Positions 9,273-49,246 of a DNA stretch of 64,000 nt are shown piece after piece. Source of the stretch: Lewinellaceae bacterium (GTDB lineage: Bacteria > Bacteroidota > Bacteroidia > Chitinophagales > Saprospiraceae); the NCBI GenBank assembly GCA_024644235.1, contig JAHELJ010000013.1:1-64000 (forward strand). Reading direction: 5' to 3'. The notes below the pieces were generated by a model. That model was given only the letters and a program-made list of their open reading frames with translations, searched no databases and was not told where the DNA came from. A program made the translations under genes and the position numbers. Positions within the stretch are counted from its first letter, which is position 1. Each line of letters opens with the position of its first letter.

Positions 9273-11222
9273 ATGAAGTTATCTGATCACCTCCTTCTTA
9301 TTTTAGCCTTGTGTTTTACGTTTATCGTGGCTCATGGGCAGGAAAAGATACTCTTTAAGGTAGAGGACACACCAGTTACCGTAGATGAATTTCTCTACAT
9401 CTATGAGAAGACAAATCGCGACAAAGCTGACTATTCAAGCGCCTCGATTGAAGAGTATCTGGATCTCTATCAAAAGTTCAAATTGAAGGTGCATAAAGCC
9501 AGGGAAATGAGGCTCGATACCATCGTTGCCTTACAAAACGAACTGGCAGGTTATCGAAAGCAGCTGGCCAGCTCTTATCTATCGGATAAGGAAGTGTTGG
9601 CAACGCTCACCAAAGAGGCTTTTGACCGTATGCAGGAAGATGTGAGTTTTAGTCACATCCTGTTCCGGATTCCTCAAAATGCCAGCCGGGAAGATTCTAC
9701 CCGTATTTATGAAAAAGCGCTATCGGCCCTTGATCGACTCAGAGAGGGTGAAGAATTTACCAAGCTGGCATTGGAACTAAGTGAGGATGAGACCGTACGT
9801 GAGAATCAGGGTAGAGTAGGCTATGTTACCGCAATGCTACCAGATGGATTTTACGATCTGGAAACGACCTTGTACACTTTGCCTCTGAATCGATACTCGC
9901 GGCCAGTACTTAGTAGACTGGGATACCACATCGTGATGCGACATGATAAGAGGCCCGCCCGGGGTGAAATCGAAGTATCCCATATATTGATCCGTAACGA
10001 GCGGGGTAGGAGTGCCAAGTCATTGGTTGATTCATTACACCAGATGCTAGTGGATGGAGCCGACTTTGCCGACCTTGCATCTAGATACTCTGAAGATAAG
10101 CTCACTGCATCCAAAGGAGGATATTTAGGGTTTTTTGGTATCAATAAATACGAAAGTATTTTTGAGAACACAGCTTTTCGATTGAAAGAGGATGGAGACA
10201 TTTCTGTCCCGATTAAGACCTCGATAGGCTGGCATATCATCAAAAGAATAAGCCTCAAGCCAAAACAGTCTTATGAGCAGATTCGGAGGTTGCTTGAGAC
10301 GAAGGTGAAGAATGATAGCCGTTTTGCTATCGCCGAGAAAGCTATGCTGACCAAGATCAAGGACGAGAATAATTTTGAATTGCATGACTGGAATGAGGAC
10401 TTGTTTTTACAAGAGGTTGGAGAAAATTTCCTGACTTATCAATGGAAGACACCAGATGTGCTTACCAGGCAAGTGATATTCAGCTTGGGTGGTGAGGAAA
10501 TGACCACTCGGGATTTCTCGAATTTCCTGGTGAGAAATACCGCTTCCCGATTGAGAGTAAATAGACTGGCAGATCGCAAAAGAGCCTTACAGTCGCTTCT
10601 TCAGGAATTTATGGATCAAAGTCTCGTCGACTTTGAAGAAGGTCGCTTGGAGGAAAAGTACCCTGAATTCAAGGCCCTTATGAGAGAATACTCCGAAGGA
10701 ATTTTGCTTTTTGAAGCCACAAAGATTAAAGTTTGGGATAAGGCTTCTCAAGATTCTACCGGGCTGCGATCTTTTTATAACAAAAACAAGCAACAATATA
10801 AATGGCCAGAGCGGGCTGAGGTGGAGTCGATTGCAATTCACACATCCGATATGAAAATGGTAGACAAGGTGAAGAAGCAAATGACGAAGCGGTCGGGTGA
10901 CAAACTCCTCAAGAAATTTAATAAGAAAAGTGAATTGGTAACGATCCATTCTTCGCTGGTAGAAAGGGAAGAATTGCCGGAGGACCTGACTTGGTCTCGA
11001 AACTCAACAGCTCAGCCAGCTACTGACGAGTCTTCAGGTGCCTATACCATCAAGCGTGTTGCCGATATCATCCAGCCTCAGGTGAAAAACCTTGATGAGG
11101 CAAGGGGATATGTCATAGCAGATTATCAGGACTACCTGGAAAAAGAATGGGTGGAGGAGCTAAAATCCCAATATAAGGTGACCCTATATGAGGATGTGCT
11201 CAACTCAATCATAAAAGATTAA
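9273..11222 (+). CDS. PPIC-type peptidyl-prolyl isomerase, periplasmic, two rotamase domains
   Basis: This is a predicted periplasmic foldase/chaperone of the SurA/PrsA/parvulin class. The ATG at 9273 gives a clear signal peptide (MKLSDHLLLILALCFTFIVAHG) and 649 residues; a TTG at 9240 overlaps the promoter box and is disfavoured. A SurA-type N-terminal helical region is followed by two parvulin domains, recognisable by DVSFSHILFR and EIEVSHILIR, each ending in a GYHIV or GWHII segment. The long C-terminal region is charged and helical, and I cannot name it. It is the first of three consecutive envelope chaperone genes. The likely role is folding of outer-membrane or secreted proteins; the exact clients are unknown. 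Confidence 0.85.
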   Translation: MKLSDHLLLILALCFTFIVAHGQEKILFKVEDTPVTVDEFLYIYEKTNRDKADYSSASIEEYLDLYQKFKLKVHKAREMRLDTIVALQNELAGYRKQLASSYLSDKEVLATLTKEAFDRMQEDVSFSHILFRIPQNASREDSTRIYEKALSALDRLREGEEFTKLALELSEDETVRENQGRVGYVTAMLPDGFYDLETTLYTLPLNRYSRPVLSRLGYHIVMRHDKRPARGEIEVSHILIRNERGRSAKSLVDSLHQMLVDGADFADLASRYSEDKLTASKGGYLGFFGINKYESIFENTAFRLKEDGDISVPIKTSIGWHIIKRISLKPKQSYEQIRRLLETKVKNDSRFAIAEKAMLTKIKDENNFELHDWNEDLFLQEVGENFLTYQWKTPDVLTRQVIFSLGGEEMTTRDFSNFLVRNTASRLRVNRLADRKRALQSLLQEFMDQSLVDFEEGRLEEKYPEFKALMREYSEGILLFEATKIKVWDKASQDSTGLRSFYNKNKQQYKWPERAEVESIAIHTSDMKMVDKVKKQMTKRSGDKLLKKFNKKSELVTIHSSLVEREELPEDLTWSRNSTAQPATDESSGAYTIKRVADIIQPQVKNLDEARGYVIADYQDYLEKEWVEELKSQYKVTLYEDVLNSIIKD

Positions 11223-34238: not shown

Positions 34239-36014
34239 ATGGCTGATATCATCCAGCTGCTTCCCGACAGCATAGCCAATCAGATTGCCGCCGGTGAAGT
34301 AGTTCAGCGGCCGGCCTCGGTCGTAAAAGAGCTTTTGGAAAATGCAATTGATGCCGGAGGCAGTCGCATCCGACTGATCCTTAAAGAATCTGGTAAGCAA
34401 CTGATCCAAGTTATCGATGACGGGTGTGGGATGAGTGAGACAGATGCTCGCATGAGCTTCGAGCGGCACGCTACTTCTAAGATCTCACGTTCGGAAGATC
34501 TCTACGCCATTCGTACTCTTGGATTCCGCGGAGAGGCTCTTGCCTCGATTGCAGCAGTGTCACAAGTGGAACTAAAAACACGCAAGCATGACAATGACAC
34601 CGGGACCCAGATCGTCATCGAAGGCTCCCGGCTGATCAAACAGGAGCCCTGCGAGACTGCAGCAGGGACAAACATGATCGTTAAGAATCTATTCTTCAAC
34701 GTTCCAGCACGCCGTAAGTTTCTCAAATCAAATACGGTAGAACTAAGACACATCCTTGATGAGTTTCAACGAATTGCCGTTGCTAATCCTTCAATCCACT
34801 TCGAAGTTTTTCATAACGACACCGAGTTGTATCATCTCCCAGCAGCCCAGCTTCGGAAGCGCATTATCGCTCTGTTTGGCAAATCCATCAATGATAAGCT
34901 GGTACCACTTACTGAAGAGGCCGATATATGCAAATTGAAAGGATTTATCGGGAAGCCGAACGCTTCTAAACGAACCAAGGGAGAGCAATACCTCATTGTG
35001 AACGGACGCTTTATCAAGAGTCCATATGTTCATCATGCGATTGCCTCGGCTTATCAGAAAATACTAGCTCCCGGCACGCATCCATTCTACGTACTGAAGC
35101 TCTCGATCGATCAGGATCGTATCGATGTGAATGTACACCCTACCAAACAAGAGATTAAATTTGAGGATGAAAGGATCATTTATAATATCACTCAGGCCAG
35201 TGTGCGAAGAGCACTGAGCCAAAACAACATTACTCCCTCACTCGACTTCGATCAAAACCCAGCTCTCGCACAGATGGCCCCACGTCTACAACCGGAAAGA
35301 GAAAAGGTGATAATCCCCTCAAGTTTTTCGAAAGAGCGGAGAGACGATCTGCAAAACTGGCAGGATTTATATGAAGGTTTGGAATCAAGGGAGGGGTCAG
35401 TGGTAGAAGCCCACTTTGCCGAACAGGTAACGATTGGAGAAGACGAAACCGATCGAAAGGAACCATATCAGGTCCATCGTATGTATATAATCAGTCAGAT
35501 TAAATCTGGTTTCCTCTTGATCGATCAACAATATGCACACGAACGCATCTTGTACGAGCAATACCTCCTGAATCTGAAGTCACAACCTGCTGCCACCCAG
35601 AAATTACTTTTTCCGCAGAATATTCACCTATCACCACAGGAGAGTACCATTCTGGCGCAACTGCTGGAGGGGATTCAGAATCTTGGTTTTGAAATTGAGC
35701 ATTTCGGTAAGGATTCGTACATCTTGCACGGGATCCCAGCTCATTTGTCGAATATTGGAGAGGAAGTGTCTTTGATTCGCGAAATGCTCGAACATTTTCG
35801 TGAAAATGTAGACTTGGAATGGACTGAAGAGCAAAGGTTGGCATGGTCATTGGCGAAATCGGCAAGTCTAAAGAGAGGTACCCAACTTACCCGAATAGAA
35901 ATGGAATCACTTATCGATCAACTATTTGCCTGCGAGGTGCCGTTTCAGAGCCCGGCAGGGCACAAGTGTTTTATCACCATAGACCTGGGTGACCTAGAGT
36001 CGAAATTCAGATAA
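34239..36014 (+). CDS. mutL: DNA mismatch repair protein MutL
   Basis: MutL links mismatch recognition by MutS to downstream repair. The 591-residue protein has a complete N-terminal GHKL ATPase: IANQIAAGEVVQRPASVVKE, ENAIDAGG, IDDGCGM, RHATSKI and TLGFRGEALASI. The C-terminal dimerisation domain is present, but its metal-binding endonuclease motif reads DQQYAHE (429-435) instead of DQHAxxE, and the late CPHGRP-type motif reads SPAGHK (571-576). The histidine and cysteine ligands therefore appear lost. The ATPase half is intact and the gene is full length, so this is not a pseudogene. Confidence 0.95.
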   Translation: MADIIQLLPDSIANQIAAGEVVQRPASVVKELLENAIDAGGSRIRLILKESGKQLIQVIDDGCGMSETDARMSFERHATSKISRSEDLYAIRTLGFRGEALASIAAVSQVELKTRKHDNDTGTQIVIEGSRLIKQEPCETAAGTNMIVKNLFFNVPARRKFLKSNTVELRHILDEFQRIAVANPSIHFEVFHNDTELYHLPAAQLRKRIIALFGKSINDKLVPLTEEADICKLKGFIGKPNASKRTKGEQYLIVNGRFIKSPYVHHAIASAYQKILAPGTHPFYVLKLSIDQDRIDVNVHPTKQEIKFEDERIIYNITQASVRRALSQNNITPSLDFDQNPALAQMAPRLQPEREKVIIPSSFSKERRDDLQNWQDLYEGLESREGSVVEAHFAEQVTIGEDETDRKEPYQVHRMYIISQIKSGFLLIDQQYAHERILYEQYLLNLKSQPAATQKLLFPQNIHLSPQESTILAQLLEGIQNLGFEIEHFGKDSYILHGIPAHLSNIGEEVSLIREMLEHFRENVDLEWTEEQRLAWSLAKSASLKRGTQLTRIEMESLIDQLFACEVPFQSPAGHKCFITIDLGDLESKFR

Positions 36015-44989: not shown

Positions 44990-47953
44990 TTACCACTTTC
45001 GATCGAACAACGCCAACGGCCACTCCTCCAAGCCATCTAACTTGCTTGCTAATTGCCGCATCTGCTTGATTTCCAGCAAGGGGTAACCGTCGTCCAGCTC
45101 GACTTTTCCCGAAAGAAGATAGAAACCGCTGCCAGTGAAGGGAAACCGTTCCAGCTCAAGTGGGAAATGTACCGAATCAAAGTATTCTCCGTCTTGATCG
45201 ATCCAGGTAGCAAAACACATGTGCCGATTATTTTCCGTGGTGACTGGTTTTCGGATGACGAAGTAGCCTGTGATCTGTACCGATTTGCCTGCCATGGATG
45301 ATAACTCACGGGCACGGATGCCGTAGACCGGTCCCTCCAACAGGTGGAAAGGATCGGACAAGGTAAAACCCAGCAGCTCCAGCTCATCGAGAGGTTGCTG
45401 TTCTAGAATCTCCTTTCCATGGGGAGGCATCCACGTGTTGATGCGACCGGACCAGGGCATACAGAGCTGTCTGTCACCACCAGGCTTGTGACTTAGCCAT
45501 CGCAGAAGCACATCCCGTTTTGAGCAGCCGGTGAAGCGCGCCCCGCCGACCCGCACCGCAATCAACATCTGAGCTCTGGACAACGATAGTCGCTCGACCA
45601 GGTCCGTTAGGTCGCCGAATAATCCACCGGTCCTACGGGTATTTTCTAGTGAGGCATAGGCATTTCTGCGGAAGCCCTTCACATGCTTCCATCCCAGGAT
45701 AAGCTTGTTGACCTGTACTGACGTATCATATCTGCCATGTTGCAGGCAAGGTGGTTCCACCGCTATCCCCATCCGCCGAGCTTCGTGGACGTATACTTCC
45801 GTAGAGTAGAAGCCACCTTCGTTGTTGATTACGGCGGTGATAAACTCCAAAGGGTGATGCGCCTTTAAGTAGAGTGATTGCATGCTCTCCGCCGCATAGC
45901 TTGCCGAATGTGCTTTACAAAACGAATAGCCGCTGAAACTGGCAATCTGCCGCCACAACTCCTCGATAGTATCGGCCGGCATCCCCTTGGTTTGGCATCC
46001 CTCCTGGAATCGCGTGCGCAATTGTTGCAGCACTTCCAACGACTTTTCTTTGCCGGTCATCAAGCGTCGCAGCAGATCGGCATGACTGGCATCAAAGCCG
46101 GCAAGCACAGTCACCACCTTCATTACGTCTTCCTGGTAGACCATCACCCCGTAGGTGCCGGACAGCGCTTCTTGCAAGTCGGGATGGAGATACCGGGTAG
46201 ACTCAGTCCCCTGTCTTCTACGCAGGAAAGATCTCATCATTCCCGACTTGGCCACACCTGGCCGGATGATGGAAGTGGCAGCGACCAGGTCAAGATAGGA
46301 GCGGCACCGCATCTTTTGTAATAGACCACGCATGGCCGGAGATTCGATGTAGAAGCACCCAATGCATTCTCCCTGTGCCAGCAGGTTCAGGGTGGGCTTG
46401 TCTCGTTTCAAAGCATGCATATCGTGGATTTTCAGTTTGTGGCCACGGCGGTGCTCCACGAGCTGCACCGCCTCTTCGATATGTCCTAGCCCTCGCTGGC
46501 TCAATACATCAAACTTGTGAAAGCCCATCATCTCCGCATGATGCATGTCGCACTGTGAGATTGGGAGACCCTTCGGCATCATCTGTCGGGCGGTATAGCC
46601 ATCGATCGAATGAGAGGAAATAATCACTCCCCCACTGTGTATCGAGAGGTAGTTGGGCATCCCCTGCAGGTGTCTACCGTACCGAAAAATGAGTTGTGCA
46701 TCGGGATGAAGATTATCTTTCACGGGGTGTTGCACGATCTGATCGATTTCGCCTTTCGTTAACCCGAATACCTTGCCCAGTTCTCGTACGATCGACTTGC
46801 CTTTGAACGTGTTGTAGCTGGCAAGTAGGGCAGTGTGCTCCAGCCCATGTCGCTCAAAGAGATAGGCCAGTACTTTGTCACGGTGCTGCCAGCTGAAATC
46901 GATGTCAAAGTCGGGTGGTGCCGCCCTCTGGGGATTGAGGAATCGCTCGAAATGTAACCCCAGTTCCAGCGGCTCTACGTTAGTGATTCCCAGGCAGTAT
47001 GCTGCGAGAGAGTTGGCCCCACTGCCCCTGCCCACAAAAGGAAAACCTTGTGATCTGGCGTATCGCAGCATGTCCCAGGTGACCAGGTAGTAGGGAGCCA
47101 TACGGAGATCAGCGATGATCGCCAGCTCATGATCCAATCGCTGACTGGCTTCTCCTTGTTTCATGGCAGAATATCGATTCTTGAGTCCTGCCCGGCACAG
47201 CTGGTGAAGCATTTCTATATCCGACCGACTCGATTCGCTGAAGCTGGCTAGATTGGGATGACCACCTTTGGGCAATGCAGCCTCACAGCGATCCAGGAGC
47301 TTCCCGGTATTGGCAATTAATGGTGCGTAGTTGATCTTGAGCATTTCAATGGTGTCTTCCTCTAGCCAGGTAGAAGATGGACTTGCAAGCTGATCCCGTT
47401 GAAGCCGGGATAGAACGATCCCTTCGTCGATGCAGCGTAGCAGGCGATGGGTATGCCAGGAATGTCTGCCGGAGTGATTGATCGTGTGTAGGATGACCAC
47501 TTTGCTCAACTGAGAGGTATTCAATCTCTGGATGCGAGTAGGCAGGTCAGGTAAGCCAAATCCAACAAATTCGTGAGGCAGCAATTCCTCTAGGGGACAG
47601 GGGAGTTCGGGATAGATCGCAAAAATGTCCGGCAAGGCACTGAGCCTTTCGGGTAGGATGGCGCCACGGACGAGATGCCCACTAAGCAGTCGGTTGAGAC
47701 TTTCAAACCCGTTCGCGTTCCGACTCAGCCCTATGTATATCAATCTGCTTTTGGTCCTGAACTCGATTCCCAACACCGGCCGGATCCCCTGGCTCAAACA
47801 TAGCCTGGTGAATTCAGCTGAACAACTGGTGTTGTTGATGTCTGTCAAAGGTAGCACCTGTACGCCCCGGGCAGCTGCTTCAGTGACCAGCTGAATGGGA
47901 GAAAGGGTACCGTAGCGGAGGCTGAAGTGGGTATGCGTATTCAGATAAATCAT
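44990..47953 (-). CDS. DnaE-type DNA polymerase III alpha subunit, accessory (error-prone) class
   Basis: The 987-residue protein is a C-family polymerase, shorter than replicative DnaE (about 1,160 or more). In order: an N-terminal PHP domain (LNTHTHFSLRYG, LPLTDINN); the palm with VGRGSGANSLAAYCLGI and PPDFDIDF, holding catalytic Asp348 and Asp350; the fingers with the GEC-IGCFYIES-type segment; the helix-hairpin-helix region; and an OB fold near the C-terminus (GKSVQITGYFVIRKP). Length and the non-canonical PHP motif place it with the ImuC/DnaE2-like accessory polymerases used in translesion synthesis. It is divergent from an S24-type repressor gene with a palindromic operator between. imuA and imuB are not adjacent. 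Confidence 0.88.
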   Translation of the reverse strand: MIYLNTHTHFSLRYGTLSPIQLVTEAAARGVQVLPLTDINNTSCSAEFTRLCLSQGIRPVLGIEFRTKSRLIYIGLSRNANGFESLNRLLSGHLVRGAILPERLSALPDIFAIYPELPCPLEELLPHEFVGFGLPDLPTRIQRLNTSQLSKVVILHTINHSGRHSWHTHRLLRCIDEGIVLSRLQRDQLASPSSTWLEEDTIEMLKINYAPLIANTGKLLDRCEAALPKGGHPNLASFSESSRSDIEMLHQLCRAGLKNRYSAMKQGEASQRLDHELAIIADLRMAPYYLVTWDMLRYARSQGFPFVGRGSGANSLAAYCLGITNVEPLELGLHFERFLNPQRAAPPDFDIDFSWQHRDKVLAYLFERHGLEHTALLASYNTFKGKSIVRELGKVFGLTKGEIDQIVQHPVKDNLHPDAQLIFRYGRHLQGMPNYLSIHSGGVIISSHSIDGYTARQMMPKGLPISQCDMHHAEMMGFHKFDVLSQRGLGHIEEAVQLVEHRRGHKLKIHDMHALKRDKPTLNLLAQGECIGCFYIESPAMRGLLQKMRCRSYLDLVAATSIIRPGVAKSGMMRSFLRRRQGTESTRYLHPDLQEALSGTYGVMVYQEDVMKVVTVLAGFDASHADLLRRLMTGKEKSLEVLQQLRTRFQEGCQTKGMPADTIEELWRQIASFSGYSFCKAHSASYAAESMQSLYLKAHHPLEFITAVINNEGGFYSTEVYVHEARRMGIAVEPPCLQHGRYDTSVQVNKLILGWKHVKGFRRNAYASLENTRRTGGLFGDLTDLVERLSLSRAQMLIAVRVGGARFTGCSKRDVLLRWLSHKPGGDRQLCMPWSGRINTWMPPHGKEILEQQPLDELELLGFTLSDPFHLLEGPVYGIRARELSSMAGKSVQITGYFVIRKPVTTENNRHMCFATWIDQDGEYFDSVHFPLELERFPFTGSGFYLLSGKVELDDGYPLLEIKQMRQLASKLDGLEEWPLALFDRKW

Positions 47954-48011
47954 GTGCGTAATGAACGGTGAACAGCAAGTCCCGGCCCTTTTGAAGCAAA
48001 TGACGAAAATA

Positions 48012-48029
48012 TCGTCTAAATTTAGACGA
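48012..48029. promoter_or_regulatory. 18-bp perfect palindrome, predicted operator of the S24 repressor
   Basis: TCGTCTAAATTTAGACGA is a perfect palindrome lying 59 bp before the DnaE-type start and 71 bp before the repressor start. A third copy of the half-site, GACGA, lies at 48002-48006, in inverted orientation relative to TCGTC at 48012-48016. The placement in a divergent promoter beside a LexA-like gene suggests autoregulation and control of the polymerase. Confidence 0.65.
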
Positions 48030-48048
48030 AAAAGTTGACAATTTTACT

Positions 48049-48056
48049 TAAATTTG
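48049..48056 (+). promoter_or_regulatory. -7 promoter element for the S24 repressor gene
   Basis: TAAATTTG matches TAnnTTTG and lies 44 bp before the ATG at 48100 and 20 bp after the palindrome. No TTTG is at the right spacing. A TTGACA-N16-TATATT pattern at 48035-48062 resembles the sigma-70 consensus of other phyla but is not the usual form here. Confidence 0.35.
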
Positions 48057-48099
48057 TATATTGAAGGGAACATTTCTGGATTTAACTCAATTGAATGTC

Positions 48100-48855
48100 A
48101 TGTTTGCAGAAAACCTGAAATACTTACGGAAGCAGGAGGGATTGTCTCAGCAGGAACTGGCCGATGAACTGCAGATACCCAGGTCGACGCTGGGCGATTA
48201 CGAGCGGTCGCATACAGAGCCTAACATGGAGATGCTGCGCAAACTGGCAACTCGTTTTGAGGTAACTCTGGACCAATTGCTAATCCATCGGCTCAGCGAT
48301 CAGGAGTTGGAGATCGTTCGCTCTGATGATCTGCGAGTGCTGGCGATATCAGTAGATAGCGAGAACCGGCAGAATATTGAGTTGGTGGAATCCAAGGCAG
48401 CAGCGGGATATCTTACCAGTTTTGGTGATCCGGAATTTATTAAGGAGCTGCCCAAACTCTATTTCCCAAATATTCCTCAGGGGACCTACCGGGCATTTGA
48501 GATTCAGGGCGATAGTATGTTGCCCATGCCTCCTGGATCTATCGTGATCTGCTCCTACGTTGAGCGGCTGGAGGATCTCAAAAATGATCGAAGCTATGTA
48601 ATAGCCACTCAGGTGGACGGTATCGTCTATAAACGGATACTGCTTAATCCTGATGGCCAGTCACTCACGGCGGTTTCGGACAACCCGGTATATCCGCCAT
48701 TCCGGATCCCCTATGGGGAGCTAGCCGAAATCTGGGAATACTATGCACATCTCAGCTTCACAGATGTTAAGGCTTCGGCTGCCGATGCACTAGAGGATAA
48801 GATTAATGATATTCAACAGAAGGTCAATCACCTTCATCGGCGAATGACAGCTTGA
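48100..48855 (+). CDS. XRE-family LexA-like repressor with S24 autoprotease domain
   Basis: The ATG at 48100 (MFAENLKYLRKQEGLSQQEL) gives 251 residues; an upstream TTG at 48061 overlaps the promoter region. The N-terminal XRE helix-turn-helix (LSQQELADELQIPRSTLGDYE) is followed by an S24/LexA peptidase domain. A probable self-cleavage bond is Ala102-Gly103 in KAAAGYL, with the serine nucleophile Ser139 in GDSMLPM and the lysine Lys178 in GIVYKRIL. By analogy with LexA and phage repressors, activated RecA would trigger cleavage and derepress the target genes. The likely targets are this gene and the divergent DnaE-type polymerase. The C-terminal end is a short coiled coil. Confidence 0.9.
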   Translation: MFAENLKYLRKQEGLSQQELADELQIPRSTLGDYERSHTEPNMEMLRKLATRFEVTLDQLLIHRLSDQELEIVRSDDLRVLAISVDSENRQNIELVESKAAAGYLTSFGDPEFIKELPKLYFPNIPQGTYRAFEIQGDSMLPMPPGSIVICSYVERLEDLKNDRSYVIATQVDGIVYKRILLNPDGQSLTAVSDNPVYPPFRIPYGELAEIWEYYAHLSFTDVKASAADALEDKINDIQQKVNHLHRRMTA

Positions 48856-48880: not shown

Positions 48881-49246
48881 ATGACCTACTTGCAAAAAGC
48901 AATGGACCTGCAACGTATGATCGGAGAGGGAAAGCTCATGGATGCCTTCGAAAAGTACTATGATGATAACGTAGTTGTGGTAGAAGCCACCGGAGACACC
49001 CGCACAGGAAAAGATGTGCAGCGCAAAGCCATCCAAGATTGGATGGGCATGATCAAGGAAGCCCATGGAGGTGGAGTAGGAGCTATCACTTCCAATGAAG
49101 CGGCAGGGGTAACCTGTGCTGAATCTTGGGTGGATATCACCTTTCAGGATGGCAACAGGGTGAAGATGGAAGAGGTGGCTGTACAAAAATGGGAAGGGGA
49201 CAAGATCGTACACGAAAGATTTTATTACAACATGCCTGGGACCTGA
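48881..49246 (+). CDS. SnoaL-like / NTF2-fold protein
   Basis: This small 121-residue protein resembles the SnoaL-like polyketide-cyclase fold family: an N-terminal helix (AMDLQRMIGEGKLMDAFEKYY), then DDNVVVVEATGDTRTGK and the closing strand VAVQKWEGDKIVHERFYYN. Members bind or isomerise small molecules, but most have no known function. It starts 25 bp after the S24 repressor gene on the same strand and may be cotranscribed with it; no link to DNA repair is evident. Confidence 0.75.
   Translation: MTYLQKAMDLQRMIGEGKLMDAFEKYYDDNVVVVEATGDTRTGKDVQRKAIQDWMGMIKEAHGGGVGAITSNEAAGVTCAESWVDITFQDGNRVKMEEVAVQKWEGDKIVHERFYYNMPGT

Follow-up and report, generated by a model that had tools for sequence, protein, structure and literature searches.

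A putative small SOS regulon with a tandem GNCGA-N5-TCGNC operator in a Saprospiraceae-type bacterium

Locus organization

We analyzed a 64,000-nucleotide stretch of DNA (the window) from a Lewinellaceae bacterium of the family Saprospiraceae (assembly GCA_024644235.1, contig JAHELJ010000013.1, positions 1 to 64,000 of the forward strand), in which a gene for an accessory DNA polymerase, dnaE2, lies divergent from one for a LexA-like repressor (Table 1). An earlier note on this DNA had described a 987-aa accessory-type DnaE beside a divergent repressor with a probable cleavage bond and catalytic dyad, lacking ImuA and ImuB. The open reading frame (ORF) and its Pfam domains agree with the polymerase assignment (DNA_pol3_alpha, 7e-61; finger domain, 1.8e-43; plus HHH_6 and PHP). 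The repressor matches HTH_3 (1.8e-16) and Peptidase_S24 (2.7e-6), and its Ala102-Gly103, Ser139, and Lys178 show no variation in alignments of 12 and of 39 sequences, the window's own counted in. The list of neighbors likewise holds neither imuA nor imuB, and in it no gene for a Y-family polymerase (polY) adjoins dnaE2, unlike in a paralogous cassette on contig C90 of the same genome. Within the intergenic region, TAAATTTG at 48049..48056 (+) matches TAnnTTTG, the Bacteroidetes −7 box, and would presumably act as a promoter.

Table 1. Features of the dnaE2-lexA locus and of its paralogue (window coordinates unless a contig is given)
Feature	Position	Strand	Remarks
dnaE2, C-family accessory DNA polymerase without linked polY	44990..47953	-	987 aa; PDFDID motif retained
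Divergent regulatory region common to dnaE2 and lexA	47954..48099		146 bp
Candidate operator O1, GACGA-AAATA-TCGTC	48002..48016		exact GNCGA-N5-TCGNC; starts 48 bp from dnaE2 start
18-bp perfect palindrome TCGTCTAAATTTAGACGA	48012..48029		inner half-sites of O1 and O2
Linker between O1 and O2	48017..48024		8 bp; O1 and O2 centers 23 bp apart
Candidate operator O2, GACGA-AAAAG-TTGAC	48025..48039		ends 60 bp from lexA start
lexA-like repressor, CI-type HTH_3 and S24	48100..48855	+	ATG at 48100, 251 aa; Ala102-Gly103, Ser139/Lys178
SnoaL-like small protein	48881..49246	+	25 bp 3' of lexA
Repressor/polY-dnaE2 cassette (L011)	C90 8517-13711		S24/HTH_3 repressor, divergent polY, then dnaE2; paralogue of window cassette

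The N-terminal domain of the repressor is a CI-like HTH_3 rather than a winged helix. In an AlphaFold2 model (mean predicted local distance difference test score, pLDDT, 71.3; linker at residues 70–120 below 50), an extra C-terminal helix spans residues 223–250 (pLDDT 51–76 there). With this model as the query, the first four Foldseek matches were lambda-type repressors (including 7jvt and 3bdn) and LexA (3k2z) came fifth; whole-chain template modeling scores of the matches were low, at 0.2–0.4, and the list also held many HTH_3 domains and unrelated helix-turn-helix (HTH) enzymes. These features fit the non-canonical LexA type that regulates the SOS response in Bacteroidetes (Sanchez-Osuna 2021, NAR; PMC8565304), and in a proxy comparison the window repressor is 41–48% identical to Sphingobacteriaceae regulators with a CTAA motif.

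We fetched 80 loci encoding named relatives of the repressor, the best 80 of 341, among which the nearest named repressors are from Saprospiraceae. Below, G000 is this genome, the window included; other G numbers are family genomes, L numbers fetched loci, and C numbers contigs of G000. Seven repressors are at least 60% identical to the window's: those of L097, L098, L099, and L137 accompany a divergent dnaE2 with no polY in the fetched flank, that of L100 has polY 1.1 kb upstream, and those of L095 and L096 show neither gene in short upstream sequences (560 bp and 1394 bp). Among the 59 loci with a 47–60% identical repressor, polY is in the flank of 20.

Candidate tandem operators upstream of lexA

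Between the divergent genes lie an 18-bp perfect palindrome and an additional half-site, GACGA at 48002–48006, both as previously noted; TCGTCTAAATTTAGACGA is the sole match to itself in the window at up to 3 mismatches (chance expectation 0.01). The palindrome had been taken as the operator unit; a better reading places it where a pair of tandem GNCGA-N5-TCGNC operators meet, GACGA-AAATA-TCGTC, TAAATTTA, GACGA-AAAAG-TTGAC. The conserved unit is this tandem, occupying the same bases, and the palindrome represents the inner half-sites of the pair.

Conservation was assessed in 79 of 81 upstream regions, L147 and L158 being dropped for missing gene starts. Of the 57 upstream regions of 47–60% identical orthologues, 25 have at least 7 of the 8 operator bases (mean 3.05 and maximum 7 over 40 shuffles); the same holds for 3 of the 8 regions at 60% or above, the window's among them (shuffled mean 0.72, maximum 3), and for 2 of the 14 below 47% (shuffled mean 0.65). 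Four others of the ≥60% group carry sites 500–600 bp upstream, before a PDDEXK_3 ORF. Exact CTAA-N5-TTAG is found in 12 of the 14 regions below 47% identity and in 1 of the 57; as a window operator we rejected both it and GGA-N5-TCC, which are exact in 0 of 8 regions (the window and its ≥60% orthologues). Even when seeded with CTAA-N5-TTAG, expectation maximization (EM) converged on the GNCGA motif. A fixed-spacer dyad-N5-dyad operator is present upstream of the repressor's own gene.

A position weight matrix, trained on the same regions it scores, places a site scoring 6 bits or more in 58 of 65 upstream regions, with spacing peaks at 23 bp (31–36 pairs, depending on threshold) and 22 bp (10–17 pairs). 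Portibacter marinus and Portibacter lacus are among the named strains in which GNCGA sites were located. Scanning half-site spacers from 0 to 20 gave 45 matches at N5, 7 at spacer 4, none at spacer 6, and, as the next highest, 15 at spacer 16. The tandem pattern, at no more than 4 mismatches in the 65 regions, has a linker of 8 in 21 and of 7 in 6, and linkers of 5, 6, 9, and 10 in 1, 0, 0, and 0.

These spacings bear on a different reading, in which the even palindrome TCGNC-N8-GNCGA would itself be the operator and bind one dimer. It has the joint longest perfect arm in the 260 bp before lexA, the arrangement is enriched in the upstream regions (23 at spacer 8 versus 2–6 at spacers 0–7, of which 6 at spacer 7; further, 16 at spacer 17 and 17 at spacer 20), and EM from a palindrome seed converges with an information content (IC) of 10.3. 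However, the N5 spacer is nearly constant, unlike the linker (7 or 8 bp); IC is higher for the 17-bp unit (11.4), which is also found singly in several promoters; and sister repressors use 4-N5-4 dyads, CTAA-N5-TTAG, both in the published account (PMC8565304, in part) and in our region counts. Nor does the palindrome recur near repair genes, the check that the earlier note had set for it: the exact 18-mer occurs once in the genome, and at up to 3 mismatches it has 3 places versus 9 for the reversed control, which led us to discard it as a genome-wide operator. We consider the single-dimer palindrome improbable and retain the tandem dyads, whose sequence is unlike both published main motifs, in line with the earlier proposal of a separate operator type.

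Candidate regulon members

Whole-genome searches for the tandem used an 8-bp linker only and, in G000, allowed up to 3 mismatches. The pattern occurs there at two places, the window and C21:49686-49723 (reversed control, 0). The second lies 8 bp before a gene for a 353-aa radical S-adenosylmethionine (radical-SAM) protein matching rSAM_PA0069 at 456.5 bits (cut-off 360). We take this PA0069-type gene to belong to the COG1533/SplB group, which PMC8565304 names among SOS targets, and call it splB-like; its spore-photoproduct-lyase matches are below cut-off. What had been proposed as a two-gene module accordingly gains this gene, which carries the only other 8-bp-linker tandem operator in the genome.

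Across 150 family genomes, the tandem pattern occurs at 42 sites in 31 genomes (control, 14). Inspection of all 42 placed 26 at lexA, dnaE2, polY, or splB-like promoters: 9 have lexA within 150 bp, some of them common with polY or dnaE2; 2 further sites are at polY or dnaE2, lexA being some 500 bp away; 5 at dnaE2 and 4 at polY have no lexA in the flank; and 6 are at splB-like genes. Four genomes, G000, G320, G364, and G386, have exactly two tandem sites each, one at lexA(-dnaE2) and one at the splB-like gene. A PDDEXK_3 ORF separates operator and lexA in G364; in G386, the 1.4 kb preceding lexA showed no dnaE2, and the second site is 1 bp from the splB-like gene.

The single sites inspected added no targets. 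The genome has just one further exact single operator, C29:11716, which lies inside an aminotransferase-like ORF, and the single 15-mer, at up to 1 mismatch, shows little excess (97 versus 76 in the control). Of 30 single-site loci fetched, 15 each among the listed matches of the 15-mer and of a 17-mer, only the window and splB sites are intergenic; the others fall inside mechanically called ORFs with a minimum length of 100 aa, two of them short at 110 and 123 aa.

The recurrence of the operator also speaks to whether the repressor is a domesticated or remnant regulator of a phage or other mobile element beside a chance polymerase neighbor, with no SOS regulon. Its CI-like HTH and S24 domains and its best NCBIfam match, the phage RstR repressor family (below cut-off), would suit such an origin. 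Yet repressor and PolY-less DnaE2 occur together in 4 relatives, in supported clades, dnaE2, polY, and splB-like genes that do not adjoin lexA also carry the operator, and the surrounding listed ORFs look chromosomal by eye; a chance pairing of this kind is very improbable.

Neighboring genes

Several further arrangements were observed around these promoters. In L095, L097, L099, and L137, a PDDEXK_3 (GxxExxY-type) ORF, called by Pfam in three and by eye in L095, stands between the operators and lexA, co-directional with lexA. In L226, L229, L233, L217, and L240, dnaE2 has a tandem operator 0–34 bp before its start, and the flank fetched (1.5–3.5 kb) shows neither a repressor gene nor polY. 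An ORF resembling an SOS-response-associated peptidase (by eye) at 2070-2768 of L246 (G382) ends just upstream of the lexA operator. The SnoaL-like gene of the window is possibly an operon member with lexA; such an ORF is also directly 3' of lexA in L098 (by Pfam) and in L096 and L099 (by eye). MutL-like ORFs lie at window 34239-36014, about 9 kb from the cassette, and, named by eye, about 600 bp from the polY operator in L223 (G374).

A second cassette in the same genome

The 5.63-Mb assembly, in 249 contigs and 97% complete, contains three DnaE genes: that at C51:73.8 kb (a 1206-aa frame, taken as replicative), the window's, and one on C90. It has two S24 proteins (window and C90), one RecA-family match, and two Y-family polymerases, on C90 and C178, in keeping with the suggestion that a Y-family partner is encoded elsewhere. 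Scanning for ImuA and ImuB returned one PF00154 match (recA) and two PF00817 matches with intact-looking motifs (by eye), a scan that reduced ImuA or ImuB could escape.

Because the C90 cassette is complete, with repressor and polY-dnaE2, the cassette in the window is a second, PolY-less paralogue. The C90 polY has intact-looking active-site motifs, and the two repressors are 34–35% identical. The gap between the C90 repressor and polY contains TCTAT-N5-ATAGA at 9341-9355, which recurs likewise in G364 and, less well preserved, at the equivalent position in G320. A 7-N5-7 palindrome upstream of the C90 repressor was dropped because it is located in the start of polY.

The two sites would imply two operator specificities within one cell. 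We tentatively entertain, at somewhat less than even odds, two insulated SOS circuits run by paralogous phage-type LexAs with orthogonal operators, CTAT-N5-ATAG for a slow-evolving PolY-DnaE2 and tandem GNCGA-N5-TCGNC for a PolY-free, fast-evolving DnaE2 plus radical-SAM repair. If so, the second circuit would be a DnaE2 mutator working without a dedicated PolY or ImuB.

Divergence of the repressors and of the PolY-less DnaE2

A LexA tree, built by a quick method from 98 rows (49 labeled GNCGA, 19 CTAA, and 30 neither, the C90 repressor among the last), places the window repressor in a clade of 7, all GNCGA-labeled (Shimodaira-Hasegawa-like approximate likelihood ratio test support 95). Labels cluster on the tree (14 changes for GNCGA versus a shuffled mean of 32.9), and GNCGA does not form one clade. 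HTH residue 33 is Asp in 46 of 49 GNCGA-type sequences versus Ala in 19 of 19 CTAA-type, and residue 36 is Arg in 45 of 49 versus Glu in 19 of 19, counts that are not independent because the rows are related. Both residues would lie in the recognition helix. Since operator type tracks these residues (Asp33/Arg36 versus Ala33/Glu36), repressor-operator co-evolution could be tested by a few substitutions.

The PolY-less, repressor-linked DnaE2s form one clade with long branches and a support of 99 (100 without the partial row, L098). The first tree left out L090 and L091, whose longest ORF is not DnaE2; the clade persists without L098, L125, and L217. As both trees are quick and have long branches, branch attraction is possible. 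Between G000 and G364, the window-type DnaE2s are 43.9% identical, versus 75.3% for the C90-type DnaE2s and 78.2% for PolY; the window repressors are 61.2% and the C90-type repressors 60.6% identical. Judged from these comparisons, the PolY-less lineage diverges fast, and the G000/G364 pair may be hidden paralogues. Mean identity for four PolY-less DnaE2s versus 29 others is 0.30 versus 0.54 at residues 731-820, 0.26 versus 0.43 at 111-250, and 0.47 versus 0.51 at 1-110. The PHP and (HhH)2 regions are the ImuB contacts in a Mycobacterium tuberculosis model (PMC12926913, in part); low (HhH)2 identity would fit loss of a partner surface, and the start of PHP would not.

The same divergence, 43.9% versus 75.3% identity with long branches, is what one would expect if the PolY-less DnaE2 were a decaying, redundant copy under relaxed constraint, still tied to its repressor. 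Against decay, the frames are open (that of L098 is cut by a contig end), PDFD(I/L)D is retained in 5 of 5, and of 200 positions that are invariant among 29 other DnaE2s the window copy retains 176, no worse than the C90 copy when that one is left out (200 of 233). We regard decay as unlikely, if less so than the palindrome operator.

Discussion

The domains, cleavage residues, operator with its tandem phasing, second promoter, and recurrence in relatives, all computed, together point to a small SOS regulon, probably inducible by DNA damage, that uses a tandem GNCGA-N5-TCGNC operator in this Saprospiraceae-type bacterium, a reading to which we assign a probability of roughly 0.8. Several results weigh against it. 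No operator was found in the available 413 bp upstream of recA, which we rejected as a target, nor any GNCGA site scoring 9 bits or more near the starts of the C90 polY-dnaE2 and the C178 dinB. In the family genomes, 16 of the 42 sites are away from such genes, about what the control predicts, and 119 of the 150 genomes have no tandem site at the stringency used. The single 17-mer TGNCGAWWWWWTCGNCA, at up to 2 mismatches, has 195 places in the genome versus 77 for its reversed control, an excess that possibly reflects base-context bias or further single operators. The self-scoring of the matrix and the restriction of genome searches to linker 8 count on the same side; a linker-7 tandem gave 0 matches in the approximately 213 kb of this genome scanned for it.

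In the regulon we propose, non-canonical LexA dimers would bind the two tandem operators, perhaps cooperatively, at centers separated by 23 bp in the divergent intergenic region, repressing dnaE2 as well as lexA; elsewhere in the genome, a tandem of this type would repress the PA0069-family radical-SAM (SplB-type) gene. Upon DNA damage, RecA filaments would trigger cleavage at Ala102-Gly103 by Ser139/Lys178, and the dnaE2, lexA, and splB-like genes would be released for error-prone, potentially mutagenic synthesis and for lesion repair, the latter being the predicted role of the radical-SAM enzyme.

A large and little-studied Bacteroidota family, unnamed in the main text of the founding paper (PMC8565304), would thereby gain a candidate SOS operator, and the candidate regulon offers a ready-made test. 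A DnaE2 lineage that lacks a linked PolY and keeps a repressor asks whether DnaE2 mutagenesis needs a Y-family partner.

The kind of repressor (PMC8565304) and DnaE2 without ImuA/ImuB in Bacteroidetes (PMC6511836, PMC12926913) are already known from the portions of these sources consulted. New is the operator GNCGA-N5-TCGNC, often in tandem pairs. Neither a Saprospiraceae LexA nor a GNCGA operator is mentioned in the main text of PMC8565304 (supplements outside our scope) or was found in the literature searched (subscription papers likewise outside). That main text does report diverged operators of the same dyad-spacer form, among them TTAC-AAATT-GTAA of Elizabethkingia anophelis, with a divergent error-prone polymerase gene. 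It also describes regulons of small size in relatives of clades whose regulators are missing or have diverged. For Bacteroidetes, a pair of DnaE2 genes in addition to DnaE1 has been listed (PMC3919608, in part).

The earlier note compared the locus with the lexA-imuA-imuB-dnaE2 cassette, which similarly links an SOS repressor to a DnaE2-type polymerase; here, in contrast, there is no imuA/imuB neighbor and the repressor is not a canonical winged-helix LexA. The closer relatives, as far as the consulted portions of the sources describe them, are the Bacteroidetes non-canonical LexA and PolY-DnaE2 systems (PMC8565304, PMC6511836, PMC12926913). With the former the window shares HTH_3 and S24 domains, the Ala-Gly bond, the Ser-Lys dyad, the extra C-terminal helix, a dyad-N5-dyad operator, and, here predicted, control of error-prone polymerase and SplB genes; it differs in having GNCGA-N5-TCGNC, in tandem at 22–23 bp, rather than CTAA-N5-TTAG or GGA-N5-TCC, and in two promoters seen with no recA site. 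Like DnaE2B-PolY-RecA systems (PMC6511836, PMC12926913), it has DnaE2 without ImuA/ImuB, and the C90 cassette has their layout, polY then dnaE2, whereas no PolY adjoins the window DnaE2, a much faster-diverging enzyme whose gene neighbors that of its own repressor. Finally, the minimal SOS regulons of HdiR and UmuDAb (PMC8565304) also place an S24 repressor over a small, polymerase-centered regulon, but in other bacterial families, and the window's would comprise a C-family DnaE2 and a splB-like gene.

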